Source: a virus. From it: 26,304 nt of DNA. Every line of letters begins with the position of its first letter. Positions within the stretch are counted from its first letter, which is position 1. The stretch spans positions 1 to 26,304 of the IMG/VR virus record IMGVR_UViG_3300008266_013245, one strand, 5' to 3'. This document shows, piece by piece, positions 2,696-19,519 of the stretch. The notes beneath the pieces were generated by a model. It was not told the origin of the DNA and searched no databases. It worked only from the letters and a program-made list of their open reading frames with translations. A program made the translations under genes and the position numbers.

Positions 2696-3070
2696 TTAGA
2701 ATGCCACTGTTTCTTCAGCAGTATCTTTTGACTTTCTCTTTGAAGACTTGGTAATCTTAGCAAAGTTATTTACCCTAATCTTCATAGTAGAATGCTTGAC
2801 CCCGTCCTTTTCCCATGAATCATTTCGTAGCGATCCTTCCACCATAACCAGATCACCCTTCTTTAGAGAGTCTGCAATAGCTTCAGCGCCGGTATCCCAA
2901 GCCTCACACTGAACAAATGTGGTTACCTTATCTACTTCCCCATTCTGCTTAGTAAATTCTCTGGACACAGCAATGGTAAAATTAGCAACAGAAGTCTGAC
3001 GACCCGCGGTGCTAACTGTTCTTACTTCAGGATCTCTAGCCAAATTACCCCTTAGAATTACAAGATTCAT
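2696..3070 (-). CDS. ssb: Single-stranded DNA-binding protein
   Basis: A 124-residue bacterial-type SSB. Residues 1-105 form one OB-fold, opening MNLVILRGNLARDPEVR, with the typical strand F-T-I-A-V-S-R and the later segment V-M-V-E-G-S-L-R. A short lysine/serine-rich linker follows. The tail ends T-V-A-F, a reduced form of the acidic D-D-D-I-P-F tip that recruits partner proteins. I chose ATG at 3070 because AAAGGAG lies seven bases upstream; the TTG one codon earlier is too close. SSB coats single-stranded DNA at the replication fork. It is flanked by its own promoter and terminator and so looks like a monocistronic, separately controlled unit between the polymerase and glycosyltransferase genes. 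Confidence 0.95.
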   Translation of the reverse strand: MNLVILRGNLARDPEVRTVSTAGRQTSVANFTIAVSREFTKQNGEVDKVTTFVQCEAWDTGAEAIADSLKKGDLVMVEGSLRNDSWEKDGVKHSTMKIRVNNFAKITKSSKRKSKDTAEETVAF

Positions 3071-3109
3071 CAATTATCTCCTTTGTTAAAAAGACCAATC
3101 CTCAACTAC

Positions 3110-3141: not shown

Positions 3142-4674
3142 CTAGATCTGCCAGCACTTCTTAATAATAAAACTATCATTATTTTTAGATTTTTCTAAAC
3201 TAAACATAATAGTATTGTGCTGATATAATATACTTTTATATTGATCGTACTCTTTAGGAAATACAACCAAATCACAAGCGCCGGTACCATCACTGATTTT
3301 TAGAAACGCCATTTCTTGACCAGGATTTTTCCCTTTTTTGGTTTTTACAATACTTACCTCATCTATCTCCGCACCCACCACTATACTAGAAGCAATAATC
3401 TTGGATTTGCTCAACGTTTTACAGTCGGTGTTTGCTGCCTCCAAATCTCGTCCATCAACGACCGAACAAGTAATTGATACTCCTAAATATTGCTTCTCCA
3501 TGTTTGCGATCCACTCATAGTCATCGTCCAAAGAATACGCTGGCTTTTTCACTGCTAAAATCAAAGACGATATAATCCCAGCTCTTTTTTTATTCACAAA
3601 GGGTATGAGATCAGATAAAATCTTGTCTAGACTATCATTAAGATTGCACTTTTCTAAGATAATTTGTTTTTCTCTTTGACTCAGATTTTGCACAATATCT
3701 AGATAAAATAGCATTTTTTTTCTAGAAACTTTGGTATAATCTACTCCACCCACAGAGATTAATGACTTGGCTGCTGTTTGATTAATTTGATCGAGCACCA
3801 TTAAGAGCAATTCATTAATATTGATATTAGATAAATTAATATTATGAGTCTGGATCATATTCAGTAATTTATTGAATACAGATTCGCCAATCCCTTTAAT
3901 ATTGGTAAGTCCAAAATAAATAATATGATTATCTAAGATAAAATCTTTATTTAGTTTTCTAAGATCTGGTCTATATACTTTAATATTATTAGCAATAGCA
4001 TTATTAACCAGTTCAGAAACCTCTCTCATGGGGTCTATTTTATCTTTGGAAAATTTTAAATAAGATGTAAAAAATTCCTCAGGATAATGAGCTTTAGCAA
4101 ATGCTGAGACATAAGCATTCATCGCATAACTAACAGCATGACTTTTATTGAATGAATATCGTTGACTTTTTTCGATCCAGCTAAAAATTTGTTCTGCTTC
4201 GTCCTCGCTAACAATGGCCGCTTCCTTACTCTTTTGTAAAAAGAGAGTTTTGATCTTGGCCATTTCTTCTGGCTTTTTCTTTCCGATGGCTTTTCTTACC
4301 ATATCGGCTTCTGATAAATTAAAATTTGCAACTTTTTGACAAATTTGCATAGCTTGTTCTTGATATACCATTTCACCATACGTGCTTTTGAGTATGGGCT
4401 CTAGAGAATTATGGAAGTAATCAATAGATTCTAGATTATTTTTTTTATCAATGTAATGATTACTAACGGTTTTGCCATCCCTAACGGCCTCCAAGCATCC
4501 TGGTCTTAGAATGCTAATCAAAGCAGATAACTGTTCCATATTCTGTGGCTTTAATTTTTTAGCCATAGTTTGGCCAAGCCTAGATTCTAATTGAAATACT
4601 CCTTTAGTATCGCCACTAGATATTAGATGCCATGTTTTATCGCATTCTAAATCTATATTTTCAAAATCTAACAT
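3142..4674 (-). CDS. dnaE: DNA polymerase III alpha, C-terminal half (fingers to OB-fold)
   Basis: 510 residues matching family C DNA polymerase from the start of the fingers domain onward. DTKGVFQLES (22-31) opens the fingers, then LRPG (56-59), YQEQAMQI (104-111), RKAIGKKKPEEMAK (127-140) and YSFNKSHAVSYA (173-184), all hallmark DnaE segments. A helix-hairpin-helix-like stretch (G-L-T-N-I-K-G-I-G) follows, and an OB-fold lies at roughly 425-505. There is no clear tau-binding domain. None of the catalytic Asp residues is here; they are in the gene at 5545-7416, so this protein can only work with that half. The ATG lies five bases after the exonuclease stop and has no well-spaced Shine-Dalgarno, suggesting reinitiation after exonuclease translation. 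Confidence 0.93.
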   Translation of the reverse strand: MLDFENIDLECDKTWHLISSGDTKGVFQLESRLGQTMAKKLKPQNMEQLSALISILRPGCLEAVRDGKTVSNHYIDKKNNLESIDYFHNSLEPILKSTYGEMVYQEQAMQICQKVANFNLSEADMVRKAIGKKKPEEMAKIKTLFLQKSKEAAIVSEDEAEQIFSWIEKSQRYSFNKSHAVSYAMNAYVSAFAKAHYPEEFFTSYLKFSKDKIDPMREVSELVNNAIANNIKVYRPDLRKLNKDFILDNHIIYFGLTNIKGIGESVFNKLLNMIQTHNINLSNININELLLMVLDQINQTAAKSLISVGGVDYTKVSRKKMLFYLDIVQNLSQREKQIILEKCNLNDSLDKILSDLIPFVNKKRAGIISSLILAVKKPAYSLDDDYEWIANMEKQYLGVSITCSVVDGRDLEAANTDCKTLSKSKIIASSIVVGAEIDEVSIVKTKKGKNPGQEMAFLKISDGTGACDLVVFPKEYDQYKSILYQHNTIMFSLEKSKNNDSFIIKKCWQI

Positions 4675-4679
4675 AATTA

Positions 4680-5375
4680 TTAAGCAAATGATCCTTTAAA
4701 TTTAATTTTTTTAGAGAGCGTTCTATGTAATCTAAGAAATCTAATTAATATCTCAGCACAGTCCTTAACGTCTTTGATGGCGTCGTGAGCATTAGTTTTA
4801 TCAATACCGAGGTAGTCTCTAAGATTATCTAGTGATAAGGATTTAATATCTGATACGCTCTCAAACCACAACCATGCTATATTCATGAGGTCTATTTGAT
4901 CTCGTGGATGAAATATATTGGTATTATTTTCTTTATTTACATTGCCATACTTATTGCTAAGTCTATGAATAATTTTCATATCATATCTGATAATATTATA
5001 TCCACAAGCTATGGGTGCGGAAAACTGACTCTTTTTTCCCTTAGACGATATATGATAATTATCAAGATAAGATATAAATTGTTGCCAACTATGCTTTTGT
5101 TCTGGATAATTCATCCATGATGTAAAAATATCACTAGCTGCAACGCCCTTGATCTTACCGTGCCATTCTAGTATATCGCTATCTCCATAAACAGACAAGT
5201 CTGATGGATTTTTATGATTTTCTAATTTTTCTGGCTTAATATACGCATTAAACTCAGAACCTTTGATAATCTCTAATCGTTGGGTATCTATAATGACAGA
5301 AGATAATTGTACCGGACTACAAACCAATGGATCCTTACCATCAGTTTCAAAATCAAAAACGCAAATATTATTCAT
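4680..5375 (-). CDS. DEDDh 3'-5' exonuclease (DnaQ/ExoI-like)
   Basis: 231 residues of the DnaQ-like exonuclease fold. Exo I is FDFETDG with D8 and E10, Exo II is the D in NIIRYD (D132), and Exo III is NAHDAIKD with H197 and D202. All five metal and catalytic residues of a DEDDh enzyme are present, so it should be active. Placement between the two halves of the polymerase makes it the likely proofreading subunit, the counterpart of epsilon. The long insert between Exo I and Exo II and the segment VYGDSDILEWHG are more like exonuclease I than epsilon, so an independent single-strand exonuclease role is the alternative. Its ATG overlaps the preceding stop as TAATG. Confidence 0.9.
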   Translation of the reverse strand: MNNICVFDFETDGKDPLVCSPVQLSSVIIDTQRLEIIKGSEFNAYIKPEKLENHKNPSDLSVYGDSDILEWHGKIKGVAASDIFTSWMNYPEQKHSWQQFISYLDNYHISSKGKKSQFSAPIACGYNIIRYDMKIIHRLSNKYGNVNKENNTNIFHPRDQIDLMNIAWLWFESVSDIKSLSLDNLRDYLGIDKTNAHDAIKDVKDCAEILIRFLRLHRTLSKKIKFKGSFA

Positions 5376-5548
5376 TATTCTGTAACCAATTCTACCTCTT
5401 GATTGACATCGATAAAGACATTATTGCCACTAGCGGTTTCTTTAGCATTAACTGATCTGCAACACGATACCTTAACTGTATCAGTTTTTGTATATGTTGT
5501 TCCATTAGCCTTAAATTGTTGACCTACAGCAACCTCTGAAAATTTCAT
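5375..5548 (-). CDS. Small 57-aa protein between polymerase and exonuclease genes
   Basis: A 57-residue protein starting MKFSEVAVGQQFKANGTTYT and ending DVNQEVELVTE. It has a strong Shine-Dalgarno (AAAGGAG, seven bases before ATG 5548). Its ATG overlaps the polymerase N-half stop as ATGA, and its TAA overlaps the exonuclease ATG as TAATG, so it is translated in series with both. The V-G-Q-x-F-x-x-N-G-x-x-Y-x-K beginning followed by a short hydrophobic strand suggests a compact beta-barrel-like fold seen in many phage small proteins of unknown role. The sequence reveals no catalytic motif. The position suggests, but does not prove, a part in polymerase assembly. Confidence 0.8.
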   Translation of the reverse strand: MKFSEVAVGQQFKANGTTYTKTDTVKVSCCRSVNAKETASGNNVFIDVNQEVELVTE

Positions 5549-7416
5549 AGTTTTTCTCCTTTATTGGTGAAAGAATTAACGTGCATAATTTTATCCAATA
5601 GCGCTATACCAAGTATATCAAACTTAATAACACCTAAAGCATCCAAATCATTCATTTCTAAGCCAGCAATATTTTGATTAGTTTTAGTATCAAAAATCAT
5701 GGGACAGATAGTGTTAAGTGGTTGTGCTGATATTGCAATGCCTGCCGCGTGTTTGGATTGATTATATTTGGTACCCTCTATTCTTATAGCCTGTTCAAAC
5801 CTTTTGGCAAGTGGTCCAATCAGTTGACCATTTTCATCAATTTCGCACCAATCCTTAAATTTTTCTGGACTATTTTCTAATGCCCAACGTATAATGGATG
5901 CTGTGCCTTCTTCATCTCTAATTTCTTGTAGTTCATCAGCAATCTTGGCCTCGTCTGGTATATGTTTTGTAATATTATTCATTTCTTCAAAAGATATGTT
6001 ATCATATACTCTAAGTACTTCTTTTAATGCTCCTCGACCCTTAAGAGTATTAAAAGTGATCATTTGAGACACTTTATCATAACCATATTTTTCTTTAATA
6101 TAAGATATAATCTCGTCTCTGTGTGTAATGGGTACGTCAACGTCTATATCTGGCATGGAAATACGATCTTTGGTATTTCTACCAGCATTATAAAATCTTT
6201 CAAATAGCAAATCATATTTAATTGGATCAATATTAGTAATACCAATCAAATACGACACCAAACACCCAGCAGCCGATCCTCTACCCGGTCCCGGAATCCA
6301 CCCGCTACGCCTCACAAATTCAAGTATATCACGCACAATTAAAAAATAGCTGGACAGACCCGCATTTTCTAAAACCTCCAATTCGTGCTTAATCCTTTCA
6401 ACGTAAATAGCCTGATCTTCTTGGCTAACCTTTTTATCGATCTTACGCTTCCATCCTTCTCGACATAGTTGTCTTAGGTACAAAGATTCTGTTTTATATT
6501 CTTTTGGAAAATCAAATTTGGGCAATATTGGCTTACTCAGTGGGCTAAAATTCTCACACATATCGCCAACTTTAATTGTGTTCTGTATCTCTTCAGAGGT
6601 ATACAGCTCCTCCATTAATTTTGGTTCTAATATATGATATTGTTCACTATTAAAAAAATGATTTACGCCCAGATTTTCTCCACCAATGATTTTTCTGGAT
6701 ATGTCTGGTAGTGTGCTTTTCAGACTACTACATAGAAGTATTCTTTGATCTACAGCATCTAACGACTCAGCATAATAACTATCTATTAGTGCTATGGGTT
6801 GATAATTTTTAGTCTTGCATATTTCTCTTAGGTATTTATTAATAGTTTGCTGATTATAGAAATTATCAAAATTTTGAATGCCGATAAAAATATTATCTGA
6901 TCCAAATATTTTGGATAATTCTATCATATGATCATTGAATATATTATCAGCGTCAGCCTTTAGCTCATTATCTGATGTTATCAGGTGCCATAATTGTGAG
7001 CCATAATGTCCTGTGATACAGATCGTGTGGTCTTTGTCGATCAAAGACGCTAACGTAGCCAAATCTAGCCTAGGTTTTTTGTAGAAAAAATTAGGATCAT
7101 TAGATTCAGAGACTATTTTAATCAGATTTTTCCAGCCAATAAGATCTTTACAAATTAATATAATCTTATGTTCTGGATTATTTTCTTTAATAGACACAGG
7201 ATACTGAGTGACAAATAGTTCACAACCTAAAATGGCTTTGATATTATTGTCTTGCATTTCTTTTAGAAAAGCAATTGATCCAGCAATAGTGCCACAATCT
7301 GTGATAGCACAACACGATATGCCTAGTGCTTTACATCGCTCTGCAATATCTTTTGGTTTAGATAAACCTAATTGCAAACTGTAATGAGTATGAACACTTA
7401 ATGGTATGTATGTCAT
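5545..7416 (-). CDS. dnaE: DNA polymerase III alpha, N-terminal half (PHP, palm, thumb)
   Basis: 623 residues covering the front of a family C polymerase. The PHP domain runs from residue 1 to about 270. The palm begins with GPGRGSAAG (376-384) and carries D423 and D425 in PDIDVDV; the third catalytic Asp is D600 in KFDILG. The ORF ends 23 residues later, where DnaE proteins pass from palm to fingers, and the missing part is the gene at 3142-4674. Together they total 1,133 residues, the usual DnaE size. In the PHP domain H9, H11, E66 and H83 are kept, but C41, H137 and Y214/Y215 replace usual metal ligands, so PHP nuclease activity is probably lost. The TAA of the preceding ORF directly abuts this ATG. 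Confidence 0.95.
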   Translation of the reverse strand: MTYIPLSVHTHYSLQLGLSKPKDIAERCKALGISCCAITDCGTIAGSIAFLKEMQDNNIKAILGCELFVTQYPVSIKENNPEHKIILICKDLIGWKNLIKIVSESNDPNFFYKKPRLDLATLASLIDKDHTICITGHYGSQLWHLITSDNELKADADNIFNDHMIELSKIFGSDNIFIGIQNFDNFYNQQTINKYLREICKTKNYQPIALIDSYYAESLDAVDQRILLCSSLKSTLPDISRKIIGGENLGVNHFFNSEQYHILEPKLMEELYTSEEIQNTIKVGDMCENFSPLSKPILPKFDFPKEYKTESLYLRQLCREGWKRKIDKKVSQEDQAIYVERIKHELEVLENAGLSSYFLIVRDILEFVRRSGWIPGPGRGSAAGCLVSYLIGITNIDPIKYDLLFERFYNAGRNTKDRISMPDIDVDVPITHRDEIISYIKEKYGYDKVSQMITFNTLKGRGALKEVLRVYDNISFEEMNNITKHIPDEAKIADELQEIRDEEGTASIIRWALENSPEKFKDWCEIDENGQLIGPLAKRFEQAIRIEGTKYNQSKHAAGIAISAQPLNTICPMIFDTKTNQNIAGLEMNDLDALGVIKFDILGIALLDKIMHVNSFTNKGEKL

Positions 7417-7701
7417 TTATTCGCCAGGAGCCTTATAGAATCCAAAAGAGTGATTAGGGTGTTTATATTTATGAACAACATCAGTCATGCCCAACATATC
7501 GACATCATGACGTATTTGCTCACACTTAGACATTATAGCGCCTTTGGGCGTGATCTGTCCACCCCTATATTCTTCCGAAGGATCGATACAGGTTCCATCA
7601 AAAGTAGTTTTACCAAAATGGCACAGTTTGCTACACATCCACGTTTTGTTTAGTTGTGGCTTCTGAACAGATTTAATTTTTTCAAACTTATGTCTTAACA
7701 T
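7417..7701 (-). CDS. Cys-rich C-terminal piece of a RecB/Cas4-like nuclease
   Basis: A 94-residue ORF with cysteines at 23, 27, 38 and 60 in the contexts WMCSKLCHFG, GTC and SKCEQ. This looks like the C-terminal part of phage PD-(D/E)XK nucleases, where a cysteine cluster (in Cas4/AddB-type enzymes an Fe-S site) follows the catalytic core. The reading frame upstream of the ATG continues back as DLYKTEL before a TAG, also nuclease-like, so the ORF seems to be the detached end of the gene at 7701-8366 in the -1 frame. Start and upstream stop overlap as TAATG, so it could be made by reinitiation and act in trans. It could instead be a remnant. Confidence 0.6.
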   Translation of the reverse strand: MLRHKFEKIKSVQKPQLNKTWMCSKLCHFGKTTFDGTCIDPSEEYRGGQITPKGAIMSKCEQIRHDVDMLGMTDVVHKYKHPNHSFGFYKAPGE

Positions 7702-16985: not shown

Positions 16986-18644
16986 TTAAGCCTCACAACT
17001 TTTGCAAGTTAAAATATTTCGTACTAGTTCCTGGGCTGGATTAGCACTTCTTTGGTAATAAAATGTTTTAATGCCCATTTTCCATCCTTCAATTAATAAA
17101 TCGCTTACTTGTTTGGGTGATGTCTCTGGCGGAATCATAATATTTAATGACTGAGACTGATCAATATACTTTTGTCTATTAGCAGCCTGAATAACTATTT
17201 CTTTCTGACTAATTTCACCAAAAGTTTTGAATACGTCTTTTTCTTCGTCACTTAAAAAGTCAAGATGCTGCACAGAACCACCCTTGACTAAAATACTCTT
17301 CCAAGTTTCATCATTATTTTTATCATGCTTTTTTAACACTTCTTTTAGGTAAGGATTTTTATATGTAAACTTACCCTTAGCAAGATTTTTAACAAAATAA
17401 TTACTATTAAGAGGTTCTATGCTGGGACTAACCTGACCTAATATAAAACTACTACTAGTTGTTGGGGCTACTGCTAATGTTGTGGCATTACGTCTATTAT
17501 ATCCCTTTAGTAGTGGTGGTTCTCCTACGAGAACCGCTAATTCTGTAGTAGCTTTGTCTGCTCGTTCTCTAATAGTTTTCCATATTAGACTATTTAACAT
17601 CTTAGCTTGCATGCTCTCAAAACCAACCATTTTACTTTGTAGATAAGAATGCCACCCTAGCACACCCATACCTAATGCCCTTTGATTTTTGGCAAAGTTA
17701 TGTGCAGCCTCCATAAACTTGATGCCGTCACTCTTTTGCACAAATTCTTCGTTTACAGCATCTAGGAAATAGATCAGAGTTTCTACAGCATCAGTTTCCA
17801 CAATCTCATCCCAATGTAAAAGATTAAGACTAGATAATACGCACACAAAACTATTATTAGAATCAGATGCTAAACAAATCTCTGAGCATAAATTACTTGC
17901 ATTAATAGTTAAGTTATTATCTTTGTATGCTTGTGGACTATCCTTATTGATAGTATCACTAAAAGCTATATATGGATATCCTGTTTCAAACCTTTTTTGA
18001 ATAATCTTTGCCCACACTTTTCTTTTATCTTTGTCTCCCTCTATCATACTATTCATCCACTCATCACCAATAGTAACTCCAATACTCATATTTTGAATAG
18101 GATGACCTTCACTTCGTATTTGAAGAAATTCTTCAACATCTTTGTGTTCCACAGGAAGATATGCGGCAAAAGATCCTCTGCGAGCAGACCCCTGATTCAC
18201 CACATTAGCAATCTTATCATAGATTTCCATAAAGTGAACAGCGCCACTACTTTCGCCGCCCACACTAATAGAGGCGCCTCGCGGTCTTAGGTCACCAAAA
18301 TAACCACTGGTGCCGCCACCTAATTTGCTCATAATGCCCACTTCTGATGCTTTATATAGAATGCTTTCCATAGTATCATCAATGTGGCTATTGTAACAAC
18401 TAACAGGCAGTCCACGACCGTTGCCAAAATTAGTAATTATTGGAGTGCTTAAAGAATAAAACCCTTTTGATAGATATTTATAGAACTTACTACCAAAACC
18501 TTTGATATTTAAAATCTTTTCTGCGTTATCGGATATGTGTCTATATCTGGTTTCTGGTTCCATGCCCTCTTTGAGATAGCCCCTCTTTAAGAAGAGTCTA
18601 GAGTGTTCATTTAACCAATAAAATTCTTTTTGTTCTTTTTTCAT
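16986..18644 (-). CDS. nrdA: Ribonucleotide reductase class Ia, alpha subunit
   Basis: 552 residues. Catalytic residues are all visible: C83 in PVSCYNS and C268 in FVCVLSS form the redox pair, and N251, C253 and E255 in NLCSEI form the thiyl-radical site. Y529 and Y530 (FYYQR) are the radical-transfer tyrosines, and the C-terminal CKSC (547-550) is the relay for thioredoxin or glutaredoxin. The N-terminal ATP-cone of bacterial NrdA is absent, so the usual dATP feedback is likely missing. The enzyme reduces NDPs to dNDPs with NrdB. It overlaps the GIY-YIG gene's stop as ATGA. Confidence 0.96.
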   Translation of the reverse strand: MKKEQKEFYWLNEHSRLFLKRGYLKEGMEPETRYRHISDNAEKILNIKGFGSKFYKYLSKGFYSLSTPIITNFGNGRGLPVSCYNSHIDDTMESILYKASEVGIMSKLGGGTSGYFGDLRPRGASISVGGESSGAVHFMEIYDKIANVVNQGSARRGSFAAYLPVEHKDVEEFLQIRSEGHPIQNMSIGVTIGDEWMNSMIEGDKDKRKVWAKIIQKRFETGYPYIAFSDTINKDSPQAYKDNNLTINASNLCSEICLASDSNNSFVCVLSSLNLLHWDEIVETDAVETLIYFLDAVNEEFVQKSDGIKFMEAAHNFAKNQRALGMGVLGWHSYLQSKMVGFESMQAKMLNSLIWKTIRERADKATTELAVLVGEPPLLKGYNRRNATTLAVAPTTSSSFILGQVSPSIEPLNSNYFVKNLAKGKFTYKNPYLKEVLKKHDKNNDETWKSILVKGGSVQHLDFLSDEEKDVFKTFGEISQKEIVIQAANRQKYIDQSQSLNIMIPPETSPKQVSDLLIEGWKMGIKTFYYQRSANPAQELVRNILTCKSCEA

Positions 18645-19519
18645 AATAAATTTGCTTCTTTTAGAATAGGGTTAATTGTGCAGGATATGTCGCATTTATA
18701 CTTTTGACTTATCCAAGTTTTAGTTTTACCAGATAAAAAATATTTGATAATTTTATGTTTGTGTTGCCACGCACGAGAAGATTTCCGCGGTTTATGCTTA
18801 GTTCTAATTTGAATATTATTTGTTCTTAATATATATGTAATAGTATTAATTGCGCATTTATATTTTTGAGCCAACTTATATGCTGGTATGCCTTGCTGAT
18901 AAGCAGCAATTATACCCTTAGAGCTTGCCCAAACAGTACTTCTCAGATTTTTGGGTCTTTGTTTCAGATTAGATTCTTCAAATAATATTTTTTTTGCTGT
19001 TTTTTGAGAAATTTTGTAATATCTACATATTTTTTGAATAGACCAAAAATCATTAGTATAACGATTAATTATTTTTGTACTAGATTTTCTAATTTTGGTA
19101 TTGAACGATGGGTGGTCTTTGCCAGACCCTACACTCTTAATACCGCACTGAATCATATTTGTTAAGTCATTACCATTATCTAAAAAAATCTTTTGCCATT
19201 TCTTTTCAGATAAATACGCTTCTGTTTCATCATCAAACTCCTCCAAAACTTTGGACATAATAAAATATCCTTTTTTCTCTAATAGTCTGATTTTTCTAGA
19301 TTTATGAAAATGCCATGATGTTTTATGATATGCTTCTCTAATATGTTCTCTTTCTCTTCTATGGGCTAATATTGTTGGGCGTTTTGCTTTGCCTACATAG
19401 AAAACAAAATTTTTATTATGTCTAGTTTTGTTTGGGTCTACAGAATAGAATAGACAGTATGTATAAAATAACTTATTCACACTATCTAGTCTATAAATAG
19501 CTCTTCTGGACTTATTCAT
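18641..19519 (-). CDS. GIY-YIG homing-type endonuclease with three HTH repeats
   Basis: 292 residues. The N-terminal 110 residues form a GIY-YIG nuclease: YCLFY (20-24) and FYVGKAK (40-46) are the two strands, and R and H residues follow in RREREHIREAYH. After residue 150 come three helix-turn-helix segments: WSIQKICRYYKISQKTAKKI, AYKLAQKYKCAINTITYILR and KTKTWISQKYKCDISCTI, a DNA-recognition array typical of mobile endonucleases. It stands exactly between nrdB (two-base gap) and nrdA (ATGA overlap), as the T4 mobE endonuclease does. Likely a free-standing homing endonuclease that spreads by cutting endonuclease-less relatives near nrd. Its own codon use looks like its neighbours. Confidence 0.8.
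   Translation of the reverse strand: MNKSRRAIYRLDSVNKLFYTYCLFYSVDPNKTRHNKNFVFYVGKAKRPTILAHRREREHIREAYHKTSWHFHKSRKIRLLEKKGYFIMSKVLEEFDDETEAYLSEKKWQKIFLDNGNDLTNMIQCGIKSVGSGKDHPSFNTKIRKSSTKIINRYTNDFWSIQKICRYYKISQKTAKKILFEESNLKQRPKNLRSTVWASSKGIIAAYQQGIPAYKLAQKYKCAINTITYILRTNNIQIRTKHKPRKSSRAWQHKHKIIKYFLSGKTKTWISQKYKCDISCTINPILKEANLL

Follow-up and report, generated by a model that had tools for sequence, protein, structure and literature searches.

To our knowledge, the catalytic core of replicative polymerases is nearly always a single chain. The virus record IMGVR_UViG_3300008266_013245, analysed here over its whole length of 26,304 bases (the window), raises a question in this respect: What kind of replicase could arise from a family C DNA polymerase that is encoded in two separate genes, with an exonuclease gene and an open reading frame (ORF) for a protein of 57 amino acids (aa) lying between them? 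We consider it highly probable that the two genes specify a two-chain α subunit of a bacterial virus replicase, of DnaE type and accompanied by its own DnaQ-like exonuclease, and we infer that the chains form a complex, that this complex is active, and that it binds the exonuclease. The coordinates, lengths (623 + 510 = 1,133 aa), and overlaps reported in the initial annotation were all reproduced, and gene positions, Pfam, and alignment bore out the presence of the 57-aa ORF and of a DEDDh exonuclease between the two halves.

The Two Halves and the Position of the Break

The N-half had been described as carrying PHP, thumb, and palm with all three catalytic aspartates. This was confirmed by Pfam, which detected the PHP domain (PF02811, E 4.5e-29) and the palm (PF07733, DNA_pol3_alpha, E 8.5e-71), and by alignment, in which D423, D425, and D600 are shared by all 30 sequences; the palm also has the GxGRGSAAG motif, and a joint alignment with DnaE of Escherichia coli equates D600 with D555 of that enzyme. 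The C-half matches the fingers (PF17657, DNA_pol3_finger, E 4.7e-46) and, again above the cut-off, PF14579 (HHH_6), which covers the helix-hairpin-helix (HhH) motif. Its oligonucleotide-binding (OB) region gives a weak, sub-threshold match in Pfam, and is further delineated by a profile alignment extending to E. coli residue 1056 and by β strands predicted at 431–509.

Where, then, does the break lie? Profile searches of PDB match the N-half to Taq α from residue 6 to 637 and the C-half to Taq 642–955, or E. coli α 584–1056, so that nothing is missing at the joint; the earlier view that the break falls at a domain boundary, with no DnaE block lost, thus stands. AlphaFold models of the isolated halves are of high quality, with predicted local distance difference test (pLDDT) 90.9 and predicted template modelling score (pTM) 0.88 for the N-half, the last helix of which spans 605–620, and with pLDDT 91.1 and pTM 0.82 for the C-half. 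Foldseek relates both to Pol III α structures, namely 2hpi for the N-half (E 1.6e-46) and 4iqj/7pu7 for the C-half (E about 1e-23). The N-half ends with KFDILGIALLDKIMHVNSFTNKGEKL and the C-half starts with MLDFENIDLECDKTWHLISSGDTKGVFQLES, which jointly span the E. coli stretch from KFDFLGLRTL to VFQLES, with 26 letters in between. Taken together, alignment, profile matches, and the separately modelled folds place the break in the predicted loop or linker that follows the last palm helix and precedes the fingers, at about residues 574–584 of E. coli. One detail needs to be corrected, since the C-half does not begin at DTKGVFQLES, as was first thought, but about 20 residues earlier, in the loop and first helix.

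The C-halves of many related loci (e.g., L013, L106, L122, and L146 at 3700–5325) begin with an extension of 25–40 residues that precedes the fingers and contains a CGCxF motif, and they have one more conserved Cys (LxCxKTW); these residues may form a small metal site at the joint. The C-half of the window is without such an extension.

The main genes of the window are on its minus strand, and the split polymerase belongs to a replication block with genes for helicase, primase, deoxynucleoside monophosphate kinase, PD-(D/E)XK nuclease, and SSB (table 1). The N-half gene overlaps the 57-aa ORF by 4 nucleotides (nt; ATGA), the latter overlaps the exonuclease gene by 1 nt (TAATG), and 5 nt separate the exonuclease gene from the C-half. 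No family in Pfam or PHROGs was matched by the 94-aa protein encoded upstream of the N-half.

Table 1. Features of the polymerase block and its immediate neighbours in the window
Feature	Position	Strand	Length	Characteristics	Basis
SSB gene	2696..3073	-		Directly downstream of the C-half; conserved neighbour	PF00436; after C-half in most relatives
C-half, DnaE-type α	3142..4674	-	510 aa	Fingers, HhH, and OB regions	PF17657, PF14579; PDB profile; AlphaFold; Foldseek
DEDDh (DnaQ-like) 3'-5' exonuclease gene	4680..5375	-	231 aa	Between the halves; conserved C-terminal KFKxSF-like tail	PF00929; phrog_192; alignment
57-aa protein	5375..5548	-	57 aa	Accessory; conserved SCC...N core	Alignment of relatives
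AGGAG, Shine-Dalgarno-like, of the 57-aa ORF	5556..5560	-		In the terminal stretch of the N-half gene	Sequence reading
N-half, DnaE-type α	5545..7416	-	623 aa	PHP, thumb, and palm with D423, D425, D600	PF02811, PF07733; PDB profile; AlphaFold; Foldseek
Conserved 94-aa protein	7417..7701	-	94 aa	Directly upstream of the N-half	Before N-half in nearly all relatives

Conservation of the Split and of Its Parts

To what extent is this arrangement shared by other viruses? Searches with either half were run against IMG/VR and GTDB genomes; because each query was one half, close fused relatives would have turned up. We retrieved 157 viral or metagenome-assembled genome (MAG) loci with both halves, non-redundant in having no identical 400-base stretch, among which near relatives remain. 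The polymerase is split in 155 of the 157 (from IMG/VR, plus two MAG contigs), which settles the question of whether the split is clade-wide, and the only two fused viral loci, L142 and L144, are both distant. Of the 155 split loci, 154 have the exonuclease gene in the intervening position, and the same gene order is found in at least 150 contigs, down to about 45% identity. At 58% identity, 144 full-length split pairs fall into 15 groups, including the locus L143 and Rossellomorea phage phiT1. The simplest arrangement, N-half, exonuclease, and C-half with about 690 bases between the halves, is seen in L237, L245, and L254. The two MAG contigs with the same block, assigned to Flavobacteriales (L145) and Lokiarchaeota (L146), are probably mis-binned viral contigs.

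All three genes are under purifying selection, which is strong on both halves: the median dN/dS of close pairs is 0.066 for the N-half (56 pairs), 0.039 for the exonuclease (35 pairs), and 0.042 for the C-half (34 pairs). Moreover, in each of 20 contigs of 96–205 kb there is a single palm domain and a single fingers domain, although the N-half of one of them (L069) has internal stops, and profile searches found no polymerase of family A or B (PF00136 for the latter) in these 20 contigs, for which reason their sole replicase appears to be the split polymerase.

The exonuclease is classified under PF00929 in Pfam and under phrog_192, DNA polymerase exonuclease subunit. It keeps the DEDDh residues (FDFET, YNIxxxD, AHDAxxDV), and motifs Exo I–III (DxE, D, HxxxxD) are invariant in the alignment of relatives; so too is its C-terminal tail conserved (F226, K227, F230), with a KFKxSF-like sequence that could be a docking peptide. 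The 57-aa protein, in contrast with the exonuclease, is recognisable in 60 of the 155 split loci; the remainder, about 60%, either lack it or encode no recognisable form, and consequently it is not a core part of the polymerase. Searches of Pfam, PHROGs, PDB, and phages gave no match to it.

The PHP domain of the N-half presents a different situation. Alignment indicates that its metal ligands are partly replaced in the window and its own subclade (D16L, H41C, H84K, H214Y), and partly lost also in L002 and L004, while being kept in most relatives. They are wholly or mostly lost in L237, L239, L249, L260, L267, and others, which have a shortened N-half of about 520–570 aa; a shortened N-half lacking the ligands is characteristic of another subclade. 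The PHP active site has thus been lost repeatedly with retention of the exonuclease gene. Since the metal ligands are partly replaced in the window subclade and absent from the shortened N-halves, a nuclease role of PHP, if any, can be dispensed with, and the separate exonuclease is most likely responsible for proofreading.

The halves had been considered the products of one translational chain. This is indeed the usual condition, given that an in-frame start of the C-half lies within 30 nt of the exonuclease stop in 132 of 153 loci, and the genes leave little space between them, their translation being probably coupled; yet it is not required, because other genes, up to about 6 kb, may lie between the parts. 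The N gene of L230, with a product of 639 aa that ends in ...LSTGIIK, is about 6.1 kb away from the exonuclease and C-half genes, which remain together, and the N-half and C-half are therefore independent proteins. Several extra genes separate exonuclease and C-half in L025 and L114, and contigs of the L036 type have a methyltransferase-like gene as an extra gene within the block. The intervening cassette of L230 (3–5254) is one of amino-acid and sugar metabolism; as judged by eye, it contains genes for aldehyde dehydrogenase, arginine metabolism, and aminotransferase, along with nucleotide-sugar dehydrogenase and saccharopine dehydrogenase-like genes.

A Probable Two-Chain Enzyme and the Alternatives

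How might such an enzyme work? In the mechanism we propose, the α subunit would consist of two polypeptides, each folding on its own and associating with the other non-covalently. The first chain, with PHP, thumb, and palm, would hold the whole catalytic site, and the second, with fingers, HhH, and OB, would form the part that binds nucleotide and template, the two meeting at the position where, in single-chain enzymes, a linker follows the last palm helix. The DEDDh exonuclease would most likely act as the proofreading, ε-like subunit, and the near-continuous translation of N-half, 57-aa protein when present, exonuclease, and C-half would favour local assembly in stoichiometric amounts. A stronger version, which we advance only tentatively, is that of an obligate three-chain replicase, in which α would exist solely as a non-covalent dimer of N-half and C-half that is held or bridged by the exonuclease, so that gene order and translation couple assembly with proofreading.

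Several observations weigh against a two-chain replicase with its own exonuclease. A search of the phage collection, at the sensitivity applied, showed no isolate of the clade that has the exonuclease gene between the halves. No sliding clamp of bacterial type (PF00712) was found in the 20 large contigs, and the profile alignment of the C-half has no match to the internal clamp motif at its E. coli position; processivity would therefore have to be provided by the host or by some other factor. The distance matrices of N-half and C-half are strongly correlated (Mantel r 0.917, n = 150), as befits partners inherited together, but shared descent and linkage alone would also produce such a correlation. 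Finally, none of the 20 large contigs is certified complete, and a second polymerase could be missed in them.

The alternatives need to be considered against this background. That the break is an error of sequencing or assembly, or a recent inactivating insertion, has next to no probability: N-half frames are broken in a few relatives (L069, L076), with nothing of the kind specific to the window, and the recurrence of the same order in at least 150 independent contigs, the strong purifying selection, and the monophyly of the group (see below) rule it out. Where the initial annotation envisaged fused relatives together with signs of artefact or inactivation as the outcome that would overturn its claim, we found conservation and purifying selection. 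A different possibility is that the halves are rejoined into a single-chain α, whether through a split intein spliced in trans, through splicing of the RNA, or through ribosome bypass. It has a precedent in cyanobacterial DnaE, where α derives from two genes and is rejoined by a split intein, with the break elsewhere, and some relatives of the window do have inteins within the fingers or palm. However, neither the C-termini of N-halves nor the N-termini of C-halves show intein sequence in any aligned relative, and the joint alignment agrees, so that a split intein at the joint is rejected and the earlier statement that none is visible there is upheld. On either side of the break, a few to about 40 residues separate the homologous core from the end or start of the half, and in most relatives the C-half has its own start codon overlapping or near the exonuclease stop. 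Complete genes, sometimes several, intervene between N-half and C-half, so that neither ribosome bypass nor a simple intron can explain the split in general, and covalent rejoining is very improbable.

It is also improbable, if somewhat less so, that no joint polymerase is formed at all, the host enzyme copying the virus while N-half and C-half have separate roles, for instance as decoys or modulators of host Pol III. Either half alone could in principle compete with a host subunit, and both the lack of a phage clamp in the 20 contigs and the loss of the PHP site in several lineages would fit such roles. Against them stand the invariant catalytic residues of the palm, the conserved motifs of the fingers, and the location of both genes, each present once in all 20 large contigs, beside those for helicase, primase, SSB, and exonuclease. 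A more serious contender, though we still hold it to be rather unlikely, accepts the two-chain polymerase and takes the exonuclease to be unbound, its position reflecting operon packing only. This would account for L143, which has RNase HII and other genes instead of the exonuclease between the halves, and for phiT1, in which a gene for 49 aa is all that lies there; it accounts less well for the nearly constant placement of the exonuclease gene in the other split loci, for its permanence beside the C-half in L230 despite the moved N-half, and for the invariant tail motif that might serve in docking.

With regard to inteins in other positions, Pfam detected PF14890 elements in the fingers at ILRPGC in the C-halves of L026 (7707–10046) and L058 (8001–10268), and L032 and L034 have similar inserts. 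In L077 (3966–7042), the palm of the N-half is broken by an intein piece, a gene for a 264-aa nuclease-like protein (Phage_endo_I/TnsA-like, a weak match), and a second piece, a layout suggestive of a fractured gene that carries a split intein.

Origin of the Split and Other Divided Polymerases

In evolutionary terms, did the split arise only once? The loci with an exonuclease between the halves form one clade, with maximal support in the Shimodaira–Hasegawa-like approximate likelihood ratio test (SH-aLRT 100), in both a 53-row tree and a 35-row tree obtained with a mixture model. Its likely sister is L143 (support 85–88); in that locus, the region between the halves (4788–5975) encodes a 110-aa ORF, a protein resembling RNase HII by eye, and an 80-aa zinc-ribbon-like protein, and no exonuclease. 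The phage phiT1 groups instead with fused polymerases of Bacillus phages, and a constrained grouping of all palm/fingers splits, implying a single origin, was rejected (p-AU 0.027 in the approximately unbiased test); on these grounds, the loop between palm and fingers has probably been broken at least twice. Two fused sequences from human faeces labelled 'Bacteriophage sp.' (MT836494, MT835501) were set aside as bacterial; a phosphofructokinase-like gene follows dnaE in them.

Compared with single-chain DnaE or Pol III α of E. coli, Taq, and Clostridia, the window enzyme has the same set and order of domains, the palm Asp triad, fingers, HhH, and PDB folds, but it is divided between two genes, the cut following the last palm helix, its match stops at E. 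coli 1056 with the C-terminal τ-binding region absent, and the canonical internal clamp motif is not in its usual place. A parallel is phiT1 (PV767480), which is broken in the same loop, with a 49-aa gene between those for gp20 (573 aa) and gp18 (469 aa), but lacks the intervening exonuclease and has about 30–33% identity. Jumbo phages of group 2.2 (RaK2-like) have a minimal split Pol III α without PHP, encoded by genes far apart and beside a family B polymerase (PMC7824862). They resemble the window in having the family C catalytic core in two proteins that are expected to reconstitute one enzyme, and differ from it since the window genes are linked, PHP is present, and PF00136 is missing from the 20 contigs. 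In RaK2 the palm profile matches only at positions 19–95, in a 175-aa ORF (18–98 in Atu_ph07), and the fingers profile has no match in either phage, which places the break of RaK2 elsewhere. DnaE is also encoded in two genes in Microbacterium phages of cluster EF (PMC7302621). These genes are adjacent in Anakin, an example of that cluster, as they are in Bacillus phage vB_BpsS-140; unlike in the window, the break falls between PHP and palm (345 + 767 and 363 + 852 aa, respectively), leaving palm and fingers on one chain. The split-intein DnaE of cyanobacteria shares with the window an α derived from two genes, but the window joint is devoid of inteins (for intein splitting, cf. PMC3919608). 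In the literature searched, which offered only the jumbo-phage and Microbacterium cases of divided DnaE, we did not find a palm/fingers break with an exonuclease in between. Divided Pol III α of phages being already known, the present arrangement is a new variant rather than a new category.

Palm and fingers are kept apart, on different proteins, in a large and widespread clade of uncultured viruses, where a probable proofreader is encoded between the two; this arrangement is old and conserved, and an isolated, apparently unrelated phage has broken the same loop. Such a natural two-component polymerase would provide a means to test the communication between fingers and palm, as well as a ready design for split polymerases. 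In practical terms, marker-gene surveys based on full-length DnaE will miss or fragment viruses of this kind.

Two minor observations can be added. In Bacillus phage Jayan (L127), DnaE is broken inside the palm into 410 + 76 + 634 aa, while being one gene in its near relative PS1 (L141), and this break may represent a frameshift error or an intervening element. In the window itself, positions 18641–19519 of the minus strand encode a 292-aa protein that, by eye, resembles GIY-YIG endonucleases and lies between two ribonucleotide reductase genes.

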